A DNA stretch of 52,394 bases from a virus, in the IMG/VR virus record IMGVR_UViG_3300037189_013052, positions 1 to 52,394 of that record, one strand, 5' to 3'. The translations under genes were made by a program, and so were the position numbers. Within the stretch, counting starts at the first letter, position 1; each line of letters begins with the position of its first letter. Below the pieces are notes generated by a model. It ran no database searches, was not told where the DNA came from, and worked only from the letters and a program-made list of their open reading frames with translations. This document shows positions 32,247-46,966 of the stretch, one piece after another.

Positions 32247-35200
32247 TCATCCGAATAAAGATTCCTGCCCTGGCGCTTCAGGTGGCAGTGTAGGTGGCGC
32301 ACCGGGAATCACGCTCAACACTTCACGCACAGCATCAGAGATTTCACCGCGTAGTTGCTGCTGAATCTGTTGTCGCTCCTGGGCCGATTTCGCATCCATG
32401 ATGGCCCTTGCGCCGCGGTCAAGGGCCTGGCTAACAGGGCTGGAGAGATTCTTCATCTGATCAAACACAGCTAGCACTCGCTCAACCTCGGCAGACGCCT
32501 CGCGATTAGCCGCGGTATCCACCTGGCTGCCGGCTTTCCGAAGTGCCTGCTCTGCCCTACTGGTCGAGAGCGTCTTGAATAGGGACTTGTCCTCCAGTAG
32601 CTCATCCCGCATGGACCTGGTGACGTCTGCGCGACTGAGCTTAAATCGCTCCGCGTCCGGGTCGTTGAACAGCTCCAAGGTCGAACCCTGCTGCATCGAT
32701 GCTTTCTCAGCGGCTACCAACTCGCGCACAACGTCAGCGCTTGCCGTTGGACGCCTGGCCAGGATGCTGGCAACGTTGCGCATGCCCTGCGAGTCCAAGC
32801 CGGCTCCACCAATCTGCGAAGCCTTCTCGATCCCAATCGTTTCATTCACGACAGCCGACCAGAGATCATCTGGCAGGCTGGCAAGGTTGGCACCATCGCG
32901 TGCCGCGGCTTTCTTTAAGGGGATACCCATCGCCTGCATGTCCGCAGCGGTGTAACCCTTCTCACGCATGAACTTTGCCGCATCGATAGCCGTGCCTTGA
33001 CCTTCGGCGATGTTGGCCAATGCGCCCATGGCCCTGGCTTCTGCCGCATCGGATGCGTTGATGTAGCGAACGCTCACCGCGTCAGCGCCAAGGCGACTTG
33101 CAGCCGCCAGTCTATTGTGACCGTTGATGACATAGGTCTGACCATTGGCCGGATCCTTCCAGACGCTGATCACGCCGGCTAAGGTCGGGTCGTATCTGCT
33201 GACCCCCTCCAGGCTGCCGACTTCCCCAGTCTTGGCATCGGTGGCTGCTTTGTACTGGAAGCGCTCCGCATCAGCTCGCACCTGATCGGGCCGCAGTGAT
33301 CCAATGGATCCAGCCTTTGCGGTTGTCGGATCCAGTAGCCGGGTCGGCAGCTTGCTGAGTGTCAGGTCTGCCGGCTTGGCCGCCAGCTCCAGTTCAGGCG
33401 GTTCAGCCAGCTGCCCGGCACGCTTGGCTTTCAGGTCGGCAACACTGCGCAGCATGCCCTTACTGCTGCCGGCCATTCGCGCCACTTCGCGATCAATGGC
33501 AGCATTCACCAGAGCATTGCCGTCCTTAGTGGCCTGCGCCTTAGCTGATCGGGTCGGCGCATCTTGAACAGCGGCAGCTGCATCGTTCATTGCCTTCGCA
33601 ATGGCGCTGCTGGGTTGATTCTTGAGCAGATCAAACACATCGGACCGTGAGCGAGCCTCAGCCGCCTTGATCTGCGCCTGCTGCACGTCGATCTTGTTAC
33701 CCTTTGCCGCCAGCACATCGGCTTTGCCCGCCGCCTTATCTAGAACGCGAATCTCTCGGTTCTGCTCGGCTCGCAGCTTGGCCGCAAGCTCAGCCCTTTC
33801 GATCATGGTTGAGGTTTCAACCTGGCTAGTACCGAATAGGGTTGACTCTTCCCGCACTCGCGCCTTGCTGGCTCGCGCTGCCTGCAGAACTTCATCCAAG
33901 GTTGCGGAGCTCATGGACGGCTTACCCTGCAGCACCTTGTAGGCATCGGCCATCTGACCTTGCGTCAGGCCGCTGCGACCAATCGCGGCACCGTGCTCAA
34001 TCGAGAGGCGACCTTCTGCCGCCGCCGAGAATATGAAATCGGGAAGTTCCGCAAGTGCTGCACCGTTTCGCGCTACAGAGCCCTTGAGGTTCAAGCCCTG
34101 AGCAAGCATGTCCTTTGCCCGTTGGCCGGTGTCCCGCATGAACTTTGCCGCATCGATTGCGGTGCCATCTCCATTGGCGATGTTCTGCTTAGCGCCAATC
34201 GCTCTTGCTTCGGCAGCGGTTTTAGCCTCGATGTTCAGCACCGGCACCTGGCCGGCACCTAGCTTGTTCGCTAACGCCAGCCGGTTATGGCCATTGATGA
34301 CATAGGTCTGGCCGTTCGCCGGATCCTTCCAGACTGACAGGACGCCAGCTAGATCCTCGTTCCACTTCTGCACGCCGCGCAGACTGCCAACCTCACCGGT
34401 TTCGCTGTTGGCGCCGACCTTGTACTGAAAGCGGGCCGGGTCAGCCTTGATGTCAGAGGTTTTCATCCGCGAAACCCGGTCAATCATCGGCGGGCCCTGC
34501 TGATCTCGCGGCGCCGTAGGCGTAGGCGGCATGGCGCCCATTGGGGACTCTCCTTTGCCGAACAGCGGCACCGACTCCCCCAGCGATTGCGGATTCTTCG
34601 GATACAGCCGCTTCTCTGATGCTGTTGGTGTTCGCAAGGCTCGGGCCAGATCAGCTCGGGCCTTTGCCATGTCTGGCCCCTGCTGCTGCAGCTTGAGGAT
34701 CTTTGCGTCCATCGCATCGATCAGGTCAGGATCCTTTAGCCGGGCCCGTTGCGCCTGCAGGCCCTCCAGTTGGGAGCGGTGCTGGCCCTCGGCGAAGGCT
34801 TCAACGCCACGCTCATGCTCCGCCTGCCAGCGCTCGTTGTCGAGCAGCACGGCGCGGCTATCCGGGTCTCTTTCCTGCACCGCTTCATCGGCGACAGGAA
34901 CCACGACGCAGCGGCAGCGAGGATGCCACGGCACCGGCACCCGATCGATCGGATACACCCGCCCATTGCGGCTCGCGCAGGTCGGGCAGGTCCGCTCATC
35001 ATTGCTGGCCAGCACCCGGACGTAGCTGTAGCCCTGCTGCCGGCTGCGGGTCAGTGTGCCCTGTGTGTAGGCGGTGGCCAGCTCAGAGCGGGCGATCAGC
35101 GCTGCCCGCTGCTCCAGGCCCAACCTCTGGGTGATGCCGTTCGGATCCTTGGCACCGCGGAGTGCCTGGCGGATCGAGGTTTCCAGCCGGCTCGGGCCCC

Positions 35201-35741
35201 AGCCGCGAGTCGCACCTTCGCCCACGATCTGCGCCAGCTGATCACGAAACCGGGCCGTCTCGCCCTGGATGTAAGCGCTGGTGGTGGTTGCCGCGGCACG
35301 GATCGCCAAGGGATCAGCGCCAGCAAACGGCACCTCTGCCGGCGGCCGGCCGACCATGGTCATCAGCTGCTGGCCCAGATCACCGCCAAGCTGGGCGGCT
35401 TCGCGCAGGTCGCGCTCGTAGGCCACCGTCCATTGGCGCAGTTCTTCCTCGCCCATGAACTGCTGAGCGTCCAAGGTGATCGCCCGGAACTTCGCCGTCG
35501 CTTCGGCTGCCGAGTAGGCGCCAGGCCGGCGGATCGGGTTACGGGCCGGGTCGTAGCCCTGCGGACCCAGCACGTCGATGTAGCTGGCGTAGTGGCGCTT
35601 CAGGTCAACCAGGACGTTCTGAAGAGAGCGCCGCAGCATGAGCACGGTATTTCGTGCGCTGCGGCGCTCCAGCAGGTCCAGGGCTTTGGCGTAATCGTCA
35701 GCGACACCAACCAGTCGCCGTGGCCCTGGAGTCTGCGTCAC
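32247..35741 (-). CDS. MuF-type head morphogenesis protein fused to two ParB-like domains
   Basis: A 1164-residue protein. Residues about 130-285 are the SPP1 gp7/Mu F minor head domain, ending in the zinc-like motif Cys252-Cys255-His273-Cys276-Cys278. Then come two related units of about 250 residues (from about 426 and about 816). Both start FQYK...TGEVGSLxGV and contain the identical VWKDPANGQTYVINGHNRLA, a ParB/Srx-type nucleotide-binding motif, followed by IDAAKFMR and a helical tail. This matches the phage polyvalent protein pattern, in which MuF proteins carry effector domains into the host with the DNA. Partner of the portal. Confidence 0.85.
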   Translation of the reverse strand: MTQTPGPRRLVGVADDYAKALDLLERRSARNTVLMLRRSLQNVLVDLKRHYASYIDVLGPQGYDPARNPIRRPGAYSAAEATAKFRAITLDAQQFMGEEELRQWTVAYERDLREAAQLGGDLGQQLMTMVGRPPAEVPFAGADPLAIRAAATTTSAYIQGETARFRDQLAQIVGEGATRGWGPSRLETSIRQALRGAKDPNGITQRLGLEQRAALIARSELATAYTQGTLTRSRQQGYSYVRVLASNDERTCPTCASRNGRVYPIDRVPVPWHPRCRCVVVPVADEAVQERDPDSRAVLLDNERWQAEHERGVEAFAEGQHRSQLEGLQAQRARLKDPDLIDAMDAKILKLQQQGPDMAKARADLARALRTPTASEKRLYPKNPQSLGESVPLFGKGESPMGAMPPTPTAPRDQQGPPMIDRVSRMKTSDIKADPARFQYKVGANSETGEVGSLRGVQKWNEDLAGVLSVWKDPANGQTYVINGHNRLALANKLGAGQVPVLNIEAKTAAEARAIGAKQNIANGDGTAIDAAKFMRDTGQRAKDMLAQGLNLKGSVARNGAALAELPDFIFSAAAEGRLSIEHGAAIGRSGLTQGQMADAYKVLQGKPSMSSATLDEVLQAARASKARVREESTLFGTSQVETSTMIERAELAAKLRAEQNREIRVLDKAAGKADVLAAKGNKIDVQQAQIKAAEARSRSDVFDLLKNQPSSAIAKAMNDAAAAVQDAPTRSAKAQATKDGNALVNAAIDREVARMAGSSKGMLRSVADLKAKRAGQLAEPPELELAAKPADLTLSKLPTRLLDPTTAKAGSIGSLRPDQVRADAERFQYKAATDAKTGEVGSLEGVSRYDPTLAGVISVWKDPANGQTYVINGHNRLAAASRLGADAVSVRYINASDAAEARAMGALANIAEGQGTAIDAAKFMREKGYTAADMQAMGIPLKKAAARDGANLASLPDDLWSAVVNETIGIEKASQIGGAGLDSQGMRNVASILARRPTASADVVRELVAAEKASMQQGSTLELFNDPDAERFKLSRADVTRSMRDELLEDKSLFKTLSTSRAEQALRKAGSQVDTAANREASAEVERVLAVFDQMKNLSSPVSQALDRGARAIMDAKSAQERQQIQQQLRGEISDAVREVLSVIPGAPPTLPPEAPGQESLFG

Positions 35742-35941: not shown

Positions 35942-35953
35942 TTAGGTTTCCGG
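35942..35953 (-). repeat. start-associated 12-mer (acidic gene)
   Basis: CCGGAAACCTAA, perfect copy, 21 bases before ATG 35920; its TAA is the stop codon of the portal gene. Confidence 0.7.
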
Positions 35954-37423
35954 GTCCAGCGGCAATGGCGGCAGGCCGCCCAGGTCATTCAGCCCTATCG
36001 GATCCGCCGGCTCGGGTCGCTCCTGTTGGATCCGCTCCAGCTCATCGTCCACGCTGGTGGTTCCCTTGACCACACCGGCCCGCTGCAGCTCTTCGATTGC
36101 GGAGCGCTGGCTGATCAGCTCCGCACCACCGGCCAGCTGCTGCAGTTGCGCAATATCGGCCGGCTCCAGGGGCCGCTCATAGAGGCTGGCATTCATCTGC
36201 AGGCCAGCGCCAGCCTGCAGAGTCTCACCGGTGAACAGCACCCAAATCGCCATGAGCGATTGCATGGCCGAGGCTTTGCGTTGCGCGATGCGGATGATCG
36301 TGCTCTCGGTCTGCGCCGACTCCAGCCCCGCCTGTGTGGCCGTCTTGGTGGCCTGGCCATCGCCGTAGAGAAAGCCCAACGTCTGGCGGCTGATCAGCTT
36401 CTCCACCTCTGCGATCTGCGCCCGCTGCTCCGCCAGGCTGGACGCTGAGGGTTCGGCAAAGGTGAAGGAACCGCCGGGCTCCAGATCCACCACGCTGTTG
36501 GGCCCCAGAACCAACGGTCGCCGTGCTTCACCTGGCGCCGGTGGTGCGGCACCAATCCGCACCGGCACTGGCAGAGCACAGCGGTGGGTTTTCTCGCGCA
36601 GATCGGAGCGCTGCTGGAAGTGCTCGATTGAATGCTCCACCACCTGGCGCAGGGGCAGATCGCCTTGCCCGAAGCCGCTTTGATCGCTGCTGTACCAAAC
36701 CACCGGCACGATCGGCAGCGGCTGGCCATTGGCACCTAGGTACTGGCCTTGATCCACCATCACGGCGGTCAGGTCATTGGAGGCGTTGCGCTCAATCTCA
36801 AACAGCATCCATTCCCCGCGGCCGATCACCCGGTAGCGAGGCGTCATCTTGGTGCCGAAGTCGCCGTCCGGTTCTTCGCTCAGCTCCAGCAGCGTCACCC
36901 GCTCCAGGCTCTCGACACCATCGGTGACCGACACGCGCCAGTTCAAAACCTTGGATCGCGCCCGGGCCAGCAGGTAAGGCCGGCGGCCCATGGCGGTCTC
37001 TTCGGCGGCGCTACCGGGCAGGCCATCAGGCATCTCGACGCAGAGCGCTACGCCACCATCGCGCAGCATCCACGCATCGATCTGCTGCCACCAGGCGGTC
37101 AGGCTGTTGCCCTCTAGGTCGATGTTATCGGCGGCGGCTTCCAGGCTGTCGGGCGGATCCTTGAGGCTGAACTTCGACAGCACACCAGCGAAGGCGTGAA
37201 CGGAAGCGCGAAAGAAGTCGGCAAAGGTCGAGCGCGACAGCCGGGCCTTGTAGGCATCATCCGGCTCCTTCGCTTCCTGCGGCAGATACCGATCCTTGCA
37301 ACCCCGCAAGCAGTGGAACGCATCATGCGCCCGCGTCAGATCTTCGGCCAGCTCCCGTAGCGCCGGATGCCGGTAGCTGGGCAGCGAGGCATCGTTATCA
37401 GGTGCGTCAATCTCCAGCTTCAC
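35942..37423 (-). CDS. portal protein (DUF4055 type)
   Basis: A 493-residue protein from GTG 37423. It fits DUF4055 portals: N-terminal LPSYRHPALRELAEDLTRAH, wing region with SLTAWWQQIDAWMLRDGG, strand-rich stem with IVPVVWYSSDQSGFGQGDLP and a helical crown with SRQTLGFLYGDGQATKTATQ. Forms the dodecameric DNA gate at one vertex. Encoded between sigma and MuF. Confidence 0.85.
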   Translation of the reverse strand: MKLEIDAPDNDASLPSYRHPALRELAEDLTRAHDAFHCLRGCKDRYLPQEAKEPDDAYKARLSRSTFADFFRASVHAFAGVLSKFSLKDPPDSLEAAADNIDLEGNSLTAWWQQIDAWMLRDGGVALCVEMPDGLPGSAAEETAMGRRPYLLARARSKVLNWRVSVTDGVESLERVTLLELSEEPDGDFGTKMTPRYRVIGRGEWMLFEIERNASNDLTAVMVDQGQYLGANGQPLPIVPVVWYSSDQSGFGQGDLPLRQVVEHSIEHFQQRSDLREKTHRCALPVPVRIGAAPPAPGEARRPLVLGPNSVVDLEPGGSFTFAEPSASSLAEQRAQIAEVEKLISRQTLGFLYGDGQATKTATQAGLESAQTESTIIRIAQRKASAMQSLMAIWVLFTGETLQAGAGLQMNASLYERPLEPADIAQLQQLAGGAELISQRSAIEELQRAGVVKGTTSVDDELERIQQERPEPADPIGLNDLGGLPPLPLDPET

Positions 37424-37461: not shown

Positions 37462-38307
37462 TCAACTCACCAACAGTCCCAGCTGCACCGCCGCCTGATC
37501 CAGCTCCCGCCTGCTGCGCTTCACCCGGACCTTCGGCTCTACCGGCACCGATTGCACCTCCAGCAGGGCCAGCTGCAGGATCTCCGACAGCCGGCGGCCC
37601 TGCAATAGGGCTTTCAATCGGCCGTGATACTGCAGGATCGGCCCCTGCGGGAATGCCAGCCGCCGAGGCTGGGCCCACCAGTTGAGTAGCAGGCCGCGAT
37701 CGGCAGGGTGCATGTTCTCCCATGCGTTGGCTACCAGCTGCTGCAGCGGGGCCAGCCGGTCGATCTCCAGCTCCGGCATATCGCACGCATCGGCGCCGTG
37801 CAGGTCATCGAGGCAGCTGACGCCGGTCATGGCACCCAGCATCTCGGCCAGCTCGGTGATGCTCATCCCCGCCTGCTCTGCGACCTGCTCTGCGCTCACG
37901 TCCGGGTCAGCCATGAGGCGTTGAACCTTGCCCCACTGCTCCCTCCATTTCGTGGGGAACTTGATCGTGTGGCCCTTATCCCGGAACCAGTGCAGGATCT
38001 CACCGGTGACGAATGGGCAGATCACCGTGGAGATCGCATAGGGCTTGCCATTGGCCGGGTTCACCCGCTCCGGGTCATACCGCCGGCAGCCGCGGATCAG
38101 CCCCACATAGGCGACTGCTTCCAGGTCGTCGTAGGGCTGGCCGGTCTTGCGATGGAACCGCCAAGCTGCCTGCCGGGCCAGGCCAAGGTTCGCCGCGATC
38201 AGATCCTCTGAGCCAGCCGTAGGCGCCGGGAACCCGGTCACAGTGTCAGCCATCGCCTGCGGCTCAGCGCGAGGCTTGCGGCGGCGCGTGGGGGTTGTGG
38301 TGGTCAT
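37462..38307 (-). CDS. sigma-70 family RNA polymerase sigma factor
   Basis: A 281-residue protein. Region 2 is clear: DLIAANLGLARQAAWRFHRK, DDLEAVAYVGLIRGCRRYDP and FVTGEILHWFRDKG. Region 3 follows (TIKFPTKWREQWGKVQRLMA and SAEQVAEQAGMSITELAEML), as in group 3 (SigF/SigB-like) factors. Canonical region 4 is not obvious; the last 90 residues are helical and end in a basic segment. It lies between large terminase and portal, so it would be made with the first late genes and could direct the rest. Start overlaps the terminase stop. Confidence 0.8.
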   Translation of the reverse strand: MTTTTPTRRRKPRAEPQAMADTVTGFPAPTAGSEDLIAANLGLARQAAWRFHRKTGQPYDDLEAVAYVGLIRGCRRYDPERVNPANGKPYAISTVICPFVTGEILHWFRDKGHTIKFPTKWREQWGKVQRLMADPDVSAEQVAEQAGMSITELAEMLGAMTGVSCLDDLHGADACDMPELEIDRLAPLQQLVANAWENMHPADRGLLLNWWAQPRRLAFPQGPILQYHGRLKALLQGRRLSEILQLALLEVQSVPVEPKVRVKRSRRELDQAAVQLGLLVS

Positions 38308-39833
38308 CGGAACCCCGGCACAGCCGCCAGTGGCCGGGCAGGCTTGCGGAAGGTGTCGGCATCAGCGAACGGATCCATCGCAGCGGTGTCGCTGCTGTGG
38401 CCGTAGTGAGCGGTGCTGACGCGCATAGGGCCGGTGCCGGCGATGTAGTTGATCGCTTGGGTGGTGCTGTCCACCAGATCATCGTGCGCAGCGCTGGGGA
38501 ATGCCAGCAGCTGATCAACGTAGGTGCGCAGCCATGGCGCACCCTGCGGCAGCCAGACCCGGCCCTGCTCGAACTGTGGCGCCGCGGCATTGGCCCGGGC
38601 CGCCTTGCCCCCGAGGGGCCGCACAGCGCGGATGCTGTAGCCGGCCGCCGTGCGCTTCAGGGTGTCGATCACGGCCGGGCCGTTGGCGGCATCCTCCACC
38701 AGCAGCTCCGCAAAGCGCCAGCGCTGCCAGGCGCCTTCGATCGCGGTGACGGTGGCCGTGAACCCCATCCGCCGGTGCGTGATGTCAAGCAGGTAGAGCC
38801 CCTCGGGCCGCTGTCCCCAGATCGTGAGCGCGACGAAGTCGCTGTTGCTCGCGTCCTTGAACGTGCAGTCGATCGATGCCAGTAGCCGGGTCCAGCCGGT
38901 CGGCGGCAGCTTCTCAGGGTCGAAGTACCGCAACCATTCGCGGGTGAAGATCGCGCCACCGGCCAGGGTTGGCCGCTGCTGATAGAGCGCTTGCCACCAG
39001 CGGGAAGCGGATGAGGCGCGGATCTGCTCCAGCCGGTCGAGGGGGAAGCGTTCCGGGCATAGCGGCTCACCAGCCTGCCGCCAGTCGGGGATCACGCTGC
39101 AGGAGGTCGGCAGCGCCAGCGACTGCTCACCGGCGATGGCCGGCAGGTCCACCACGGTCCAGGCTTCAGGCCGCTCGGTGGTGGCCTCGCGCTCCAGCAG
39201 AAAGCCGGTCAGGTCGTCGAGGTGCCAACGGGTCTGGATCACCACCTGCGCCGCGCCAGGTTCCGCCCGTGTGGCGAACACCGAATCCCACCAGTCTTGG
39301 GCCCGTTGCCGGTATGTCGGGCTGTCGGCCTCCTGCGCATCCTTCACCGGGTCATCGACGATGCCCAGGCTGTAGCCCCGGCCGGTGGCACCACCGCCGA
39401 CACCCACTGCCCACATGCCACCACCGCCGGTGGTGTTCCAGCGGTTGGTGGCTCGGCTGGCCGCATCGAGGGTGCCGCCGTTCGCCTGGTAGTAGGCGCG
39501 GGCTTCGCGGCTGAAACCTTCGGCCAGCTCAGCGCCGTAGCTGGCCAGGCCCACCCAGCTGGTTGGATGCCGGCGCAGGTAGTAGGCAGGGAACAGGCGA
39601 GAGGCGAGCAGGCTCTTGGTGTGCCGCGGGGGCAACATGATCACCAGCCGGGTCAGGGTGCCGTCTGCCACCTGCTGCAGCAGATCCACCAACACATCAA
39701 CGTGCCGGTAGAACTCAAACGTCGGCGCGACGATGCGGATGAAGTCGCGGAAACTGCCGACGATGCCGCCAGAGGGGCTAGCCATGGCTGCCAACTGCTG
39801 CCGGCAGGCCGCGGCAGCAAAGGCGGTGCTCAT
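38304..39833 (-). CDS. terminase large subunit
   Basis: A 509-residue protein. ATPase motifs are Walker A LPPRHTKS (67-74) and Walker B LGIVDD (156-161). The RNase H-like nuclease domain has Asp322 (LLASIDCTFKD) and the HDD triplet 450-452 (AHDDLVD). It pumps DNA into the procapsid and cuts it. The C-terminal 45 residues are a flexible tail. Overlaps small terminase at the start and sigma at the end. Confidence 0.92.
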   Translation of the reverse strand: MSTAFAAAACRQQLAAMASPSGGIVGSFRDFIRIVAPTFEFYRHVDVLVDLLQQVADGTLTRLVIMLPPRHTKSLLASRLFPAYYLRRHPTSWVGLASYGAELAEGFSREARAYYQANGGTLDAASRATNRWNTTGGGGMWAVGVGGGATGRGYSLGIVDDPVKDAQEADSPTYRQRAQDWWDSVFATRAEPGAAQVVIQTRWHLDDLTGFLLEREATTERPEAWTVVDLPAIAGEQSLALPTSCSVIPDWRQAGEPLCPERFPLDRLEQIRASSASRWWQALYQQRPTLAGGAIFTREWLRYFDPEKLPPTGWTRLLASIDCTFKDASNSDFVALTIWGQRPEGLYLLDITHRRMGFTATVTAIEGAWQRWRFAELLVEDAANGPAVIDTLKRTAAGYSIRAVRPLGGKAARANAAAPQFEQGRVWLPQGAPWLRTYVDQLLAFPSAAHDDLVDSTTQAINYIAGTGPMRVSTAHYGHSSDTAAMDPFADADTFRKPARPLAAVPGFR

Positions 39834-40309
39834 GCGATGGTTTCAGGCTCTGGATGCTCGCCGACTGATGCGAGCCGAAGCATGAGCTCACGCTTCTGTT
39901 CAGGCGTCAGGGTGGACTGCTCGATCGTGGTCACCGTGCGCTCCTGACTGCGCTGCACTGCCCGGCGCTCAGCGGCAGCATCGGACCACACTTCACGCAA
40001 CTTGGGGTGATGGGTGAGATACCAAGTGATGGCGTTGACGTTGCCGTTTTCGGCTTGTTCGTGCAGGTAACCGAGATAACGGCTGTTGACTTTTGCAACG
40101 CCTGATTGCGTGATCCGGCGAAACCGATAGTGCAGAGAATCGGGTTCGGCAGTTTCTGCAGCTTCCAGCCAGCGCTTCCAGGTGCGATCTGACACGTCAG
40201 CAACGGCCCTCACCATGCAGTCGGGCAGGCCGCGACTGCAGAGCTTCTCAACCTCAACCAGGAGGTCTTCGGTCAGCTTGGTCGGCCGGCCACCAGCCAC
40301 GGGGATCAC
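39830..40309 (-). CDS. terminase small subunit
   Basis: A 159-residue protein from GTG 40309. N-terminal HTH-like DNA-binding region (GRPTKLTEDLLVEVEKLCSR, DVSDRTWKRWLEAAETAE) and a helical oligomerisation part (AITWYLTHHPKLREVWSDAA). It recognises phage DNA for packaging and hands it to the large subunit. First gene of the late operon, 15 bases after a predicted promoter's -10. Confidence 0.75.
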   Translation of the reverse strand: MIPVAGGRPTKLTEDLLVEVEKLCSRGLPDCMVRAVADVSDRTWKRWLEAAETAEPDSLHYRFRRITQSGVAKVNSRYLGYLHEQAENGNVNAITWYLTHHPKLREVWSDAAAERRAVQRSQERTVTTIEQSTLTPEQKRELMLRLASVGEHPEPETIA

Positions 40310-40363: not shown

Positions 40364-41233
40364 TCACACGGCCGGTTCGAGGCTCACATCCACGCCTTCT
40401 TCCGATGGGTTGAGCCGCAACCAGACGCCGCCGAGGGACTTAGGCATCACGATCTTCTCGACCGCCCAGCCGGCACCATCGCGGAACTCTTCCTTGTAGG
40501 TGCCGGTCTGAACGTGCCAGCGCTGCGCGATCCGTTGGCGGCCGGTGCTGGTGACGCGATAGCAGGGGTGAGCGACGATGCTGCGCTCATGGTTGTGGCC
40601 ATTGACCAGGATCGAGGCATCAGGAGCGATGCCGGCATAGCGACCACCACCGAGGGTGCCTTTGGTGATGATGCCGCCCCAGGCGCCGTGATGGAAGAAC
40701 AGGGCCAGCCGGCGGGTGCCGGATGAGCGATGTTCGCCGGGTCTGTGGAAGGTGAACCAGATCCAACCTTGATAGCGCATGTGCTCGGTGACGGCCTTGT
40801 AGCGATCACGAAGCACGCGGGTGACGTTACCGAGCGGGTCGATTTCCTGATTGTTGATCACGGCCGTTTCATGGTTGCCATCGGAGACCATGAGCAACGT
40901 CTTACCGAATGGCGCCAACCACTCGGCAGCTTCACTGAAGACCAGATCGAAGTAGTTACTACCGAGATGCTCGGGCATGATGCCGCCCTTGCTGCCACGC
41001 CGATCGCGTTTGCCTTGCATCAGGCAAAGCACATCACCGAAAAACAGCGCATGACCACCAGTGCCTTGAACCTGTTTCAGATGCTTGCGTAGCAGATCGC
41101 GATCACAGTGCGGGTTATCGAGGTGAATATCGGAAGCGAGCAGAAACTGATGCGGTGTGCGTTTGGAGTATGGGATCCGAATCTCCAGCAGCTCGGGGCT
41201 GTGACGGAGTAGCTGCAGCTTTGAACTCGTCAC
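40364..41233 (-). CDS. calcineurin-like metallophosphatase
   Basis: A 289-residue protein with all metallophosphatase motifs: Asp35-x-His37 (ASDIHLD), Asp67 (FFGDVLC), Asn120-His121 (DGNHE), His181-His182 (FFHHGAW) and GHNH with His213 and His215. These enzymes hydrolyse phosphomono- or diesters using two metal ions. In phages they often act in DNA processing or as phosphodiesterases; the substrate cannot be told here. It lies between the origin-like iteron region and the late promoter. Confidence 0.85.
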   Translation of the reverse strand: MTSSKLQLLRHSPELLEIRIPYSKRTPHQFLLASDIHLDNPHCDRDLLRKHLKQVQGTGGHALFFGDVLCLMQGKRDRRGSKGGIMPEHLGSNYFDLVFSEAAEWLAPFGKTLLMVSDGNHETAVINNQEIDPLGNVTRVLRDRYKAVTEHMRYQGWIWFTFHRPGEHRSSGTRRLALFFHHGAWGGIITKGTLGGGRYAGIAPDASILVNGHNHERSIVAHPCYRVTSTGRQRIAQRWHVQTGTYKEEFRDGAGWAVEKIVMPKSLGGVWLRLNPSEEGVDVSLEPAV

Positions 41234-41251
41234 GCCGTTGTAGCGGTTGCC

Positions 41252-41263
41252 GCAGTTTGCCGG
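41252..41263 (-). repeat. start-associated 12-mer (metallophosphatase)
   Basis: CCGGCAAACTGC, 10 of 12 positions, 18 bases before the start at 41233. Confidence 0.4.
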
Positions 41264-41283
41264 AAAGCCGGCGCTGCAGTGCT

Positions 41284-41547
41284 GTTACGGCTGTTACGCC
41301 ACTGTTACGCCGGGCGTAACGCCGGGATCCACTGCGCCCCAGCGGCTCTGCCCCCCTTGTTACGTTTGTTACACCTATAAAGGTAGAGATAGTAGTAGTA
41401 GAGCGTTTCCCCTTTCGTAACCAGGCGCATGGGTTCACATGCCTACGCGCACGTCTAGGGGGCTATGTTCCGCTGAGAAACCGTAACAACGTAACAACCC
41501 AGTCCCTGACTGCGATCTGCTGCGTTACGCCGGCCGTTACGGTTACG
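41284..41547. repeat. GTTACG iteron array, probable replication origin
   Basis: Twelve copies of GTTAC(G/A) or its complement in 264 bases. Direct: 41284, 41293, 41303, 41359, 41368, 41524, 41536, 41542. Inverted: 41315, 41416, 41482, 41490. Several are spaced 8-10 bases apart. A purine/AT-rich stretch (41374-41403) and a GCATG/CATGC dyad (41427-41442) lie inside. No convincing gene occupies 41234-41542. The array adjoins the primase-helicase gene, fitting an origin bound by an initiator. Confidence 0.7.
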
Positions 41548-44050
41548 ATCCGGCCGCTGGAATCGGCACTGAAACTGCCCGGCTGGCACCAGCGAGGCCA
41601 CGGAAGCGCATCACACCGGCCCGCTTGGCGCCTGGCAGCCTGCTGAGCACCGTCGCCCAGCTCTCGGTCCATGGCGTGCCGTCGAGGATGCGCCGAAGCC
41701 CCTTGGCGGTGTTGCTGATCAGGAGCAGGTCACCTTCGACCTTGATGCCGGTGCGGCCGAGGTGCGCTTCGGCGCTGTTGCTGCCGATCTCCATGCTGGT
41801 TGCGCTGCCGCGGGCGAGCTCCACCAGCTCCCAGGTGGTGCGCATGTAGCCGTTACCGCGATCACCTTCGACCCGTAGCTGATGCTGCAGGATGTGCTGC
41901 AGGCAGCGATCCTCATCCGGCTGCTCGGCTGCTTCGCGGTAATGGCTCCAGTCGTTGCCATCGATGAGATCAAAGGCGTCGGCTTCGGTAGCGGGTCTGG
42001 TGTTCATCAACGACCAGGCGCCAGCTAGCAGGGTGCCGTATTGATCACCTTGACGCTGGCTATCGAAGCGATCGGCAGCAGCGCGGCGGAAGATGGCGAT
42101 GCTGTCGCGGATGACAGGAATCAACGCGACTGATCGCAGCATCATGCGATGGCCGATCTCGGGCGTGATCAGTGTGGTCAGGTCTTTATCGAGATCGGTC
42201 CAGTGCGCGGCGCGTTGATCTTTCGGCAGAAATGATGGGTTACGCAGGGTGAGCTGCGCAAAGCGGCTGGAATCGGCGCCCTGCTTCAGTGCGGTGGAGA
42301 TAGAGCACAGCAGGAACATCGAGCGGATCACGAAGCGCTGCGCGGCGCCATCGGCACCACCACGACCGACGAAACCGCGACCGGAGCTGCTGGCGACGCG
42401 GGCGAGGGCCAGGATGTCTTGGATCCGTTTGCGGTCGGCCTGCTCGTTGGATTCGGCCTCATCCATGATCACGGGCAGGGCATCGGCGCGGAGCTCCTGC
42501 CGGATACTGGCTTCGCTGGTGCTGCCCTCGGGCCAGAGCGCGAGGCTATCGAGCAGGGTGCCTAGGAAGCGGCTCAACAGCGCCGACTTGCCGGAGCCGG
42601 CGCTGGCCGTGAGCCAGATGTGTGGCCGCCAGGCCAGGCTGCCGCAGATTGGCGCCAGGGCCGCCCAGCCGGCAATCAGCAGACCGGATGCGGGCACTTC
42701 CCACAGGAACCGAGAGGCGATGTCGAGGATCTCGGCACCTTGATGATCGGTGAGCGGTTCGAGGTCTTCGGGCAGGTCGATCGATACCAGCCGCTGGTAG
42801 TTGAACCGCGACGGCGGCGGCTTCATCACGCTGTGGGTGATGCCATCAACGATCAACCGATCACCGAGGTGCAGCACGGAGCGACCGTCATCCCACCAGG
42901 CGCCACGACCGCGGATGCGATCGGGCGAGAAGATGCCGGCACGGGCCTGATCCATGAACAGCGACGCCTTGGCCGAGGTCCAGTTGACGCCACCGCTCCT
43001 GCCGGCTGGATAGAGCGCTTCCCAGTAGCCGGTTACAGGGTGCAGCGCCAGCAGGTGGGTTTCGGTGTGGTTGCCGCGGCTGATTCTGGTGATCTGACCG
43101 GTGCTGCTGGGCTGGTAGTAATAGCTGCCATCATCAAAGCCGAGGCAAACGAAAGGCCGCTCCCCCACCGGCGGCATGGCAGCCGCAGGCGCATCAGGTG
43201 CAGCAGCAGGCGGCTGCGCTGGAGCTTCGATCCCCTTCGCCCGATCCAGGGCCTTAGCCGCCTTGACCGGCGACCAGCCTTCAGCGAGCGCATCGGCAAG
43301 ATCCCAACCCTCCGCCAGGGAAACCGGCGGATCCAGCACGCGCACCGTGCAGCCAAGGATGAGCAGCCGGCTGGCGAGCTTGGCCATCGCCTCACGGCCG
43401 ACGGCATCTGCATCAGGCCAGAGGGCAACGGATCGCCCCCGCAACGGCTGCCAGTCGGCTTTATCGAGTGCCTTGCAACCCGATGGCCAGGTAGCGACCG
43501 CATGTGCAGGGAACAGGGCAGCCGCAGCATCGGCGGCTTTCTCACCCTCCACCACCAGCACCTCAGCGCTGGCATCCCGCCGGGCCCAGTACAGCGGCCG
43601 TGGTGATGGCGGCGCCTTCCAGCGCCAGGCGGTGCCATCCCACCAGAGCGGGCGGATGCGCTTGCCACCGACAGGATCCGGGAACCGGCAGACGATGAAG
43701 TCGGCTGAGTACCGCCAGAAGCTCTCAGCACCAGCCGTCGGCGGTGCAGGCCGCTCGACCGCATGACCCAGGTGCCGCTCGACGGCAGCGCAGGCTTGCT
43801 TCAGGTCCCAGCCCTTGACCCGCATCAGCAGGTCAACGCCGGAGCCACCACCACCACGGCCGTCCTTACCGCCGCACTGGTTGCAGTACCAGCCGCCGGG
43901 CCCGTCGTCGTTGTCCCAGCGGTAGCGATCGGTGCCCTCGCAGGCCGGGCAAGGCTGGTGCTTATCGGTGAGCTGCTCAGCAGAAAGCCCGCCAAGCTCC
44001 ATCAGCAGCGAGGGCCAGCGCCCGGCTGCTGCATCAAGGATGGATGCCAT
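41543..44050 (-). CDS. bifunctional primase-helicase
   Basis: An 835-residue protein. Residues 34-59 are a T7/DnaG-type zinc finger (Cys34, Cys37, Cys56, Cys59). A TOPRIM-like primase core follows with VLVVEGEKAAD (Glu168/Glu170) and LWPDADAVGRE (Asp213, Asp215). After a linker there is an SF3/RecA-like ATPase with P-loop TASAGSGKS (481-489) and VIMDEAESNE as Walker B. It should prime and unwind the phage genome. Its gene ends inside the iteron array. Confidence 0.88.
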   Translation of the reverse strand: MASILDAAAGRWPSLLMELGGLSAEQLTDKHQPCPACEGTDRYRWDNDDGPGGWYCNQCGGKDGRGGGGSGVDLLMRVKGWDLKQACAAVERHLGHAVERPAPPTAGAESFWRYSADFIVCRFPDPVGGKRIRPLWWDGTAWRWKAPPSPRPLYWARRDASAEVLVVEGEKAADAAAALFPAHAVATWPSGCKALDKADWQPLRGRSVALWPDADAVGREAMAKLASRLLILGCTVRVLDPPVSLAEGWDLADALAEGWSPVKAAKALDRAKGIEAPAQPPAAAPDAPAAAMPPVGERPFVCLGFDDGSYYYQPSSTGQITRISRGNHTETHLLALHPVTGYWEALYPAGRSGGVNWTSAKASLFMDQARAGIFSPDRIRGRGAWWDDGRSVLHLGDRLIVDGITHSVMKPPPSRFNYQRLVSIDLPEDLEPLTDHQGAEILDIASRFLWEVPASGLLIAGWAALAPICGSLAWRPHIWLTASAGSGKSALLSRFLGTLLDSLALWPEGSTSEASIRQELRADALPVIMDEAESNEQADRKRIQDILALARVASSSGRGFVGRGGADGAAQRFVIRSMFLLCSISTALKQGADSSRFAQLTLRNPSFLPKDQRAAHWTDLDKDLTTLITPEIGHRMMLRSVALIPVIRDSIAIFRRAAADRFDSQRQGDQYGTLLAGAWSLMNTRPATEADAFDLIDGNDWSHYREAAEQPDEDRCLQHILQHQLRVEGDRGNGYMRTTWELVELARGSATSMEIGSNSAEAHLGRTGIKVEGDLLLISNTAKGLRRILDGTPWTESWATVLSRLPGAKRAGVMRFRGLAGASRAVSVPIPAAGS

Positions 44051-44546: not shown

Positions 44547-45467
44547 ATGCTTAGCGCACCAACGCGCAAAAAAGGCGAGCGACCCGGAAAGTCAGGGATT
44601 ACGCCATGCAAGCACTTCCTGCTCAATCGATTGCTGGGCAGGGAAATGGGCGTCCTCAGTCGCGGCATGCCTCCAGTGAAAGAGGCACTCCTGTATGACC
44701 TGACAGCCGGCGATGGCGTGCCCTATGTCTCTGTAGAGCAGGGCGAACTTTTACTCGAGGCAGCCTTTGGCGACGGCTGCTCTCCTGGGATCTTCCTGCG
44801 TCATGCGGACTGGTTGGTGCAGCGCGGCAGGCTACCTGTTCGGCTGACTGGCTGTGAAAAGCAGGTCATCACCCACTCTGAGCTTGTAAAGAACACGTCG
44901 CGATGGCTTGCGGCCAATGACTGGAAAGAGTATGCCCGAGGGGTGCATGCCAAGGGATTTGGAGAAGTGCGCTACTTACATGCCAATGCACAAGAGCTAC
45001 AGCCTCCGCTAATCAGTCGAGATGCAACCTGCTTTATCTACAACGATCCCAACCACATTGAAGATTGGAGTCTAACACCTGATTTTGTGCGTAACTGCCC
45101 AAAGTTCACCACGTCGCTTTCAACGCTTGGCTGCAATGTCGGCGGATTAAAGCGTATTGATGAGGAAAAGCGTCGTGAGTGGTTCATGCGAGTTGAAGTG
45201 CTGTGCGAGTCGCTGTTGCAGAACTGGCACGATGCCTGCCTGTTCTCTGTTGGCGGCGCTGACCAGTGGGCTTACCTGATCACGGCGCCCGCCAAATGGC
45301 GAGACGAGATCACTAGCGAGTGCCTGCAAGCGGCGCGGAAGCTGAAGAAAAAGATCACAGCGCCGCCGCAAGTGGTATGGCGCAAGCAGGATCCAGGCGC
45401 GTTTTATGAGCTGCAACGGTTCCTGTTCCTGACGCGCGATGAATTTAACCGTGGAGTGGAGCTGTGA
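44547..45467 (+). CDS. methyltransferase-fold partner of DUF5131 (TcmP-like)
   Basis: A 306-residue protein from ATG 44547; an in-frame ATG at 44454 would place the start at the predicted transcript end and add a segment that looks non-coding. LLYDLTAGDG resembles the SAM-binding motif I of Rossmann methyltransferases, and FIYNDPNH resembles motif IV. GITPCKHFLLNRLL near the start recalls three-Cys-motif partner (TcmP) proteins, which sit beside DUF5131 genes. The stop overlaps the start of the ParB-DUF5131 gene, as expected for such a pair. Assignment to TcmP itself is tentative. Confidence 0.55.
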   Translation: MLSAPTRKKGERPGKSGITPCKHFLLNRLLGREMGVLSRGMPPVKEALLYDLTAGDGVPYVSVEQGELLLEAAFGDGCSPGIFLRHADWLVQRGRLPVRLTGCEKQVITHSELVKNTSRWLAANDWKEYARGVHAKGFGEVRYLHANAQELQPPLISRDATCFIYNDPNHIEDWSLTPDFVRNCPKFTTSLSTLGCNVGGLKRIDEEKRREWFMRVEVLCESLLQNWHDACLFSVGGADQWAYLITAPAKWRDEITSECLQAARKLKKKITAPPQVVWRKQDPGAFYELQRFLFLTRDEFNRGVEL

Positions 45468-46966
45468 TGGATTGGGCTGAGATTCTCAGGCACTACGACG
45501 AGATCACCGGCATCCATCCGGCGGCTGATCTGTTTCCAATGGTCGAGGGCGATGAACTGCGCGAGCTATGCGCCGACATCAAGGAACGCGGCCTGCAGCA
45601 GCCGATCGTCATCTGGCGTGACGGCACCGTGCTTGATGGCCGCAATCGCCTAATGGCCTGCTACCGCACCAATCAGGAGGTGGTGCTTGAAACTTACGCA
45701 GGCGACGACCCGGTGCAGTTCAGCCTTAGCGCGAATCTGTACCGGCGGCACTTGAACCCTGGCCAAGTTGCGGTTGTGGCGCTGAAGGTGCGTGAGCTGC
45801 TGCAGCCGGCGGCGAGGGAGAGGCACCGAGAGGCGGTGATTGAGAGCAATAGGGCCAGGGCAAATGCTCCAGTTAGCGCCGATCGGCGCTTTATGGATCC
45901 GACTCCTCCTGCCCCAGTCCTGATTGAGCAATCGGCAAAGCAAGCGGCATCTGAGCAGCGCAAAACAACAACTCAGGCGGCAAAGATTGTTGGCGCTGCG
46001 CCGCGCAACGTGGAAAAGGCCGCCCGTGTTGAACGGTCAGCACCCGACCTTCTGCCTCAAGTGCAGGCCGGCACCATAGCCCTGGACAGGGCGTACCGGG
46101 AAGCCCAGCAACGGGAAAGGCAGCAAGCCGCTAGCCAGCCCCAGCCCGAAACTCCCAAGGTCCAGGAAGACACCACCATCACTCTGCTGGATCACAAGGG
46201 TAACCCGTTTGAGTATCCGAAGCCGAAGGGGAAGGCCACCTTCAACCAACAGAAGGGCACCGAGATTGGATGGGCCATGTGGAGCTGGAATCCGGTCACT
46301 GGCTGCAATCACGGCTGTAGCTACTGCTATGCCAGGGCCATTGCCACCAGTCGTGATATGGCCGCCTATTACCCGGCAGGATTCACTCCATTATTTCACC
46401 ACGAACGACTAGAGGCCCCATCCAACACACCAGTCCCGGCCCGCGCCGAAGCGGACCCGGCGCATGGTCGCGTGTTTGTATGCAGCATGGCCGACTTGTT
46501 TGGTGCATGGGTGCCACAGGAGTGGATTGATCAGGTGGTAGCTGCAACAGTAGCCAATCCACAGTGGGAATACCTGTACCTAACGAAGTTCCCGCAGCGT
46601 TACGACCGCTTGCAACTTCCCGCTAGCGGCTGGATTGGTGCATCTGTAGATGAGCAGCACCGAGCAGAGCCGACACTGGCCGCCATGCGCAAGGTGTCGG
46701 GAGTCAAGGTCAAGTGGCTTTCGCTGGAGCCATTGCTGGAGCCGATAAAGTTCTCCACATTAGAGGGCATTGACATGATCGTGATCGGTGCTCAATCGGA
46801 GAACATTGGACAAAACCAATCGTTTGCCCCGCCGTTCGAGTGGGTGGCCGACTTGGTGGCTACCGCTCGCCGCGATGGCTGCAAGGTCTGGCTTAAGACC
46901 AACCTGCTTGGCCAGGTCAGTGGCCAGTGGCCCGGAATGCAGATGATTCAGGAGGTGCCGATATGA
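45467..46966 (+). CDS. ParB-like domain fused to DUF5131 (Gp37/Gp68, CxxxCxxC)
   Basis: A 499-residue protein from ATG 45467 (GTG 45464 possible). Residues about 18-115 are a ParB/Srx-like unit: IHPAADLFPMVEGDELRELC, then RDGTVLDGRNRLMAC and LSANLYRRHLNPGQ. A Gln/Ala-rich linker follows. Residues about 235-499 are a phage Gp37/Gp68 domain with a radical-SAM-like Cys280-x3-Cys284-x2-Cys287 (VTGCNHGCSYCYAR), VFVCSMADLFGAWVP, WEYLYLTKFPQR and VKWLSLEPLLEP. The cysteines probably bind a 4Fe-4S cluster. The reaction is unknown. Confidence 0.8.
   Translation: MDWAEILRHYDEITGIHPAADLFPMVEGDELRELCADIKERGLQQPIVIWRDGTVLDGRNRLMACYRTNQEVVLETYAGDDPVQFSLSANLYRRHLNPGQVAVVALKVRELLQPAARERHREAVIESNRARANAPVSADRRFMDPTPPAPVLIEQSAKQAASEQRKTTTQAAKIVGAAPRNVEKAARVERSAPDLLPQVQAGTIALDRAYREAQQRERQQAASQPQPETPKVQEDTTITLLDHKGNPFEYPKPKGKATFNQQKGTEIGWAMWSWNPVTGCNHGCSYCYARAIATSRDMAAYYPAGFTPLFHHERLEAPSNTPVPARAEADPAHGRVFVCSMADLFGAWVPQEWIDQVVAATVANPQWEYLYLTKFPQRYDRLQLPASGWIGASVDEQHRAEPTLAAMRKVSGVKVKWLSLEPLLEPIKFSTLEGIDMIVIGAQSENIGQNQSFAPPFEWVADLVATARRDGCKVWLKTNLLGQVSGQWPGMQMIQEVPI

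Follow-up and report, generated by a model that had tools for sequence, protein, structure and literature searches.

The alpha protein of phage P4 joins an AEP primase, a helicase and an origin-binding winged-helix C-terminal domain in one chain, its iterons are short, and besides ori P4 has a second, distant iteron site, crr. The C-terminal domain of SaPI Rep binds iterons directly 3' of the SaPI Rep gene, and the C-terminal domain of SCCmec Cch2 likewise binds repeats that immediately follow the Cch2 gene on its 3' side (PMC7581432). In E. coli PICIs, an AT-rich region lies between two iteron sets, and pri-ori supports plasmid maintenance (PMC6092414). Searching the literature for iteron-containing origins in cyanophages turned up nothing relevant.

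We examined a locus of comparable organization in the window, that is, the whole 52,394-base stretch analyzed here, which comes from a virus record. Pfam and PHROG matches identify terminase, portal, tape-measure and tail-fibre genes in it, and it is therefore a full-size tailed phage, not a satellite. Twelve copies of GTTAC(G/A) occupy 264 bases (41284-41547), eight direct (plus strand) and four inverted (minus strand), GTTACG occurring 11 times and GTTACA once (41368-41373). These are the counts and orientations reported in a first-pass annotation, which had placed the start of the array at 41234; the first copy is actually at 41284. The array and its neighbourhood comprise the following features.

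38304-40309: terminase small and large subunits (Pfam/PHROG matches), about 1 kb from the array
40364-41233, minus strand: next gene beyond the array
41284-41320: distal iteron group, three plus-strand copies (41284, 41293, 41304) and one minus-strand copy (41315)
41359-41373, plus strand: GTTACG-TTT-GTTACA, a tandem pair of iterons at a 9-bp step, directly adjoining the AT-rich tract
41374-41409 (about): AT-rich tract (AT content 60-65%, that of the window about 37%), also found in relatives
41416-41421, minus strand: lone inverted iteron
41482-41487 and 41490-41495, minus strand: two inverted iterons, 8-bp step
41524-41529, 41536-41541 and 41542-41547, plus strand: three GTTACG iterons
41543-44050, minus strand: primase-helicase gene, 835 aa
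44053-44247: RHH protein gene, upstream of the primase-helicase gene; phrog_4738 calls its product a repressor

The array is far denser than chance predicts. Local dinucleotide shuffles of 41250-41560 contain GTTAC 1.36 times on average and at most 6 times (n=2000), so that the expected number becomes about 1.4, the earlier figure of about 0.1 being an underestimate when 5- or 6-mers are sought on both strands of DNA with this base composition; the best 6-mer count in shuffles is at most 5 (n=1000) versus 11 observed in the array. Outside the array, GTTAC occurs 0.77 times per kb and no more than three times in any 264 bp of the window, which disposes of the objection, anticipated in the annotation, that other regions might be equally dense. 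No other 6-mer cluster anywhere in the 52-kb window exceeds six copies per 300 bp, and none has the density of the array. A second, crr-like GTTAC cluster is likewise absent from the 52 kb record, which may be incomplete.

Two iteron groups flank the AT-rich tract, an origin-like feature of the layout. The tract is pyrimidine-rich, TCTAT-like in the sense of the gene, and is a probable unwinding element, while the tandem pair is the most conserved element of the layout when compared with relatives. The array had also been described as reaching into the primase-helicase gene; its last copy (41542-41547) does so, including the TAA stop (41543-41545), but no other copy touches the gene. GC skew, proposed as a check, has its minimum at 37951 and not at the array; this signal is weak and confounded by gene direction, and hence was not used.

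Scanning viral contigs with the primase-helicase returned 39 loci, and those with a complete gene carry a repeat array directly 3' of it, with a repeat that is not always GTTACG. Further scans with divergent members brought the set to 77 distinct genes to which an array could be assigned; in seven of these the array is mixed, five being of the GTAA[GT]A kind. The best 6-mer count in the 3' flank of the relatives has a median of 8 and is at least 6 in 78%; 6-mers counted at least six times are found in 1% of 5' flanks and in 3% of random 400-bp stretches of the same loci, with a median of 4 in both. Iterons keep their place with respect to the stop codon, but not their sequence. Relatives have a common layout of iterons, AT-rich tract, tandem iteron pair and more iterons, in which the AT-rich tract followed by the tandem pair is the common anchor, and all iterons of an array change in concert between relatives while the layout stays. 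The unmixed arrays have 15 6-mer cores (GTAACA, GTTACA, GTAATA, GTAAGA, GTGAGA, GTGACA, GTTAGA, GTTAGG, GTTAGT, GTATGA, GTATGG, GGGACA, GGAACA, GGTACA and GCAACA), their register having been set by hand for about a third of the loci, from the tandem pair and with the residues known to the assigner; a mechanical assignment agrees wherever its rule found an AT-flanked pair. Arrays of the L020 type were assigned GTAAC from the tandem-pair register, and L095 (GTAGACA, 14 copies, Arg) was excluded because its register is unclear.

Picocyanobacteria harbour relatives, and other phyla more distant ones: a scan of bacterial genomes added copies from Synechococcus, Cyanobium and Vulcanococcus as well as the remote ones. 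No clear array lies within about 400 bp of several genomic copies (e.g. L205, L211, L212 and L214). In Acinetobacter phage Acjo_20 (L049, 1350-2059), a TGTAACA array lies upstream of the primase gene, and in Serratia phage MQ-4 (L045, 6200-6700) a GGTAAC array lies 1.6 kb downstream of it; the array can therefore move relative to the gene. The 3' flanks of L194, L187, L196 and L197 have long alternating purine-pyrimidine runs (GCGCGTGTGTG) between iteron groups, which are possibly prone to unwinding or Z-DNA. The 3' flank of L096 combines GTGAGA and GTTACA iterons in one array, next to a protein with the Tyr residue, and is perhaps an intermediate of a specificity switch.

The position and layout kept in relatives, the AT-rich tract between the groups and the linkage to the primase-helicase gene all support the earlier proposal of a replication origin. 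Other roles fit these data poorly. Since the array lies between two co-directional genes, and RHH proteins bind short repeated sites with phrog_4738 being a repressor, it could be an operator at which a regulator such as the upstream RHH protein controls the downstream exonuclease-terminase genes. We regard this as very improbable: the array is retained although the RHH gene is present in only 28 of 69 relatives with upstream sequence and the exonuclease in only 2 of 76, two iteron groups around an AT-rich tract do not resemble an operator, and the repeat covaries with the primase-helicase C-terminus (below). A packaging (pac) or partition site is scarcely credible, despite the terminase genes about 1 kb away and the frequency of repeats at pac and centromere sites, as a terminase small subunit match is found in only 16 of 57 relatives with 2.5 kb of downstream sequence and the specificity of the array follows the primase-helicase.

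The primase-helicase matches the phrog_35358 DNA primase (6e-138), and its full-length AF2 model has a pLDDT of 90. It is divided as follows.

residues 30-64: zinc ribbon (Pfam Zn_Ribbon_Prim, 4e-10)
residues about 100-278: TOPRIM primase (Pfam Toprim_3; DnaG and T7 gp4 fold matches at 98-278)
residues about 300-700: AAA+ helicase (PDB structure matches)
residues about 712-835 (41546-41917, minus strand): C-terminal winged-helix-like domain (model, structure match, covariation)
41606-41614, minus strand: codons of Val813, Met814 and Arg815

The helicase part matches the folds of NrS-1, SaPI5 PriRep1, SaPIbov1 Rep and pox E5 (Foldseek E 1e-6 to 1e-4) as well as the MCM fold, and SCCmec Cch (5dgk) aligns with residues 298-835 (Z 14.4). 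Pfam DUF927 was not matched by the window protein at E 0.001, and a family-profile sequence search of the PDB gave no significant match. The isolated C-terminal domain is modelled well by AF2 (pLDDT 92.5, pTM 0.86); its best VIA-align match is SaPIbov1 Rep 452-556 with a weak Z of 4.2, Cch ranking fifth (Z 3.7), matches too weak to suffice alone, and Foldseek found none under E 0.001. We infer that this domain (712-835) binds the iterons, and the covariation described next points the same way.

We compared windowed protein identity with iteron similarity in 28 distinct members, correcting for identity over the remainder of each protein. The resulting partial correlation is highest, with r 0.50, at residues 801-830 and is at most 0.27 elsewhere, except in the overlapping 791-820 window, indicating that changes in repeat sequence track the last 30 or so residues of the primase-helicase. 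When all alignment columns are scanned, residue 815 scores best for base 6, and residue 813 for base 3, of those that the window protein contains; some sparsely occupied gap columns score equally high. Base 6 is C with Arg at the 815 equivalent (40/40) and G or T with His, Tyr or Trp (36/36), so that residue 815 predicts base 6 in all 76 unambiguous cases; base 3 is G with Lys at the 813 equivalent (8/8). On a tree from which the last 120 residues were left out, base 6 and 815 agree in 7/7 phylogenetically independent contrasts (p 0.016), and base 3 and 813 in 4/4, too few for significance. In AlphaFold models, both residues lie on one strand (809-815) of the C-terminal hairpin, two apart and therefore on the same face. 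For N4 the scan gave no clear residue in the window frame. A link of N7 with Trp was rejected: G or T accompanies Trp in 8 of 9 cases, but only 3 of 4 contrasts agree.

Many loci from the genome scan fit the rule. His occurs with GTTAGA (L213, L217), Trp with GTTTGG (L222), Tyr with GTAAGA in Paraburkholderia (L248) and Pararobbsia (L251) and with GTCAGA (L257), Arg with GTTCC (L207, L215) and GTTACA (L231, L243, L255, L256), and in L258, an Elusimicrobia bin, GGGACA goes with Lys plus Arg. Three remote loci with Arg do not fit, having GTCATA (L250), GTGAGG (L264) and GTAGTA (L245); given these misfits and the genomic copies that show no clear array, the rule holds within the family and weakens outside it. 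Because domain and array are adjacent, joint inheritance alone could explain part of the correlation, an effect that the independent contrasts reduce without removing.

The covariation bears on what binds the array. A host initiator or another phage protein might bind the iterons and recruit the primase-helicase by protein contact, and DnaA-type origins do have repeats beside AT-rich tracts. We consider this very unlikely, as the array contains no DnaA box (the sole match in 52 kb is at 1378), fifteen repeat sequences are ill-suited to a conserved host protein and the covarying residues belong to the primase-helicase. Among the binders that the first-pass annotation had listed, the primase-helicase is thus favoured over the RHH protein and a host protein, its C-terminal end covarying with the repeat. 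The RHH protein, the exonuclease, the terminase and DnaA were each rejected as binder or partner, given the patchy presence of the first three in relatives, the lack of a DnaA box in the array and the covariation with the primase-helicase.

The window protein is itself mosaic. Over residues 1-300 and 301-700 its nearest match is L002, a locus with GGGAC iterons (73 and 87% identity), and over residues 751-830 it is L009 and L010 (80% versus 58-60% for L002), whose iterons are of the GTAAC kind. The origin DNA switches in the same way, so that the segment grouping with L009/L010 comprises C-terminal domain and origin (41284-41917). Since protein and origin DNA switch together, the last 80 or so residues and the array look exchanged en bloc, and sequence comparison thus suggests that C-terminal domain and origin were swapped together in the window. 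This linkage is also the chief reason for caution, as neighbouring elements tend to be inherited jointly.

On these sequence-level data, the array is very probably the replication origin of the phage and the adjacent primase-helicase its initiator. The best reading is that the protein would be a self-loading initiator helicase of the SaPI/PICI style, with a C-terminal domain that binds iterons 3' of its own gene. The winged-helix-like domain would bind each 7-8 bp iteron, residues 813 and 815 on one beta-hairpin strand reading bases 3 and 6, respectively. The two iteron groups would load helicase rings on both sides of the AT-rich tract, the ATPase would open the tract, and the fused TOPRIM primase would make the first primers. 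Domain and array may evolve, and sometimes be exchanged, as one specificity module. We lean toward the broader view that the family's self-loading initiator helicases carry a short, evolvable residue-to-base code in the C-terminal beta-hairpin, and that exchange of the domain-and-array cassette yields many mutually incompatible origin specificities.

As in SaPIbov1 Rep and SaPI5 PriRep1, the iteron origin lies immediately 3' of the initiator gene, an AT-rich region is flanked by two iteron groups, and a related helicase fold (SaPI Rep/Cch/D5 kind) is followed by a presumptive C-terminal DNA-binding domain; a primase is sometimes fused to the SaPI/PICI initiator, as in the window protein. Unlike these satellites, the carrier is a full-size tailed phage that itself encodes portal, terminase, tail and tape-measure proteins, and the primase consists of a zinc ribbon and TOPRIM rather than AEP. 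SCCmec Cch (DUF927, MCM-like helicase) resembles the window protein in fold over 298-835, but Cch and Cch2 differ from it in that the window protein has a fused TOPRIM primase. With P4 alpha it shares short iterons and the combination of primase, helicase and a winged-helix-like, presumptively origin-binding C-terminal domain in one chain, whereas the window has one array instead of ori and crr and a TOPRIM instead of an AEP primase. Synechococcus phage S-H1 has a primase-helicase of 52% identity followed by an array of different iteron sequence, and Bdellovibrio phage phi1422 one of 36% identity followed by a GGTAAC array; both genes are annotated as hypothetical protein or primase only, with no origin annotated.

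An origin organization described as exclusive to phage satellites is thereby extended to full-size phages, whose relatives occur in picocyanobacteria and, more distantly, in other phyla, the loci examined here being counter-examples at the level of sequence. In these loci nature has varied initiator residues and iteron bases in concert, which makes specificity testable by single substitutions, and they suggest that a switch of specificity may keep phages infecting the same cell from firing one another's origins.

Other genes of the window include a phage-encoded RNA polymerase sigma factor (37462-38307, minus strand; phrog_36098, 6e-28) adjoining the terminase and portal genes. A 500-aa protein (45464-46966, plus strand) has DUF5131 at 266-478 and a weakly ParB-like N-terminal part. 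A 1164-aa protein (32247-35741, minus strand) matches a portal family (414-740) and minor head protein families, and a second, portal-like gene lies separately at 35942-37423.
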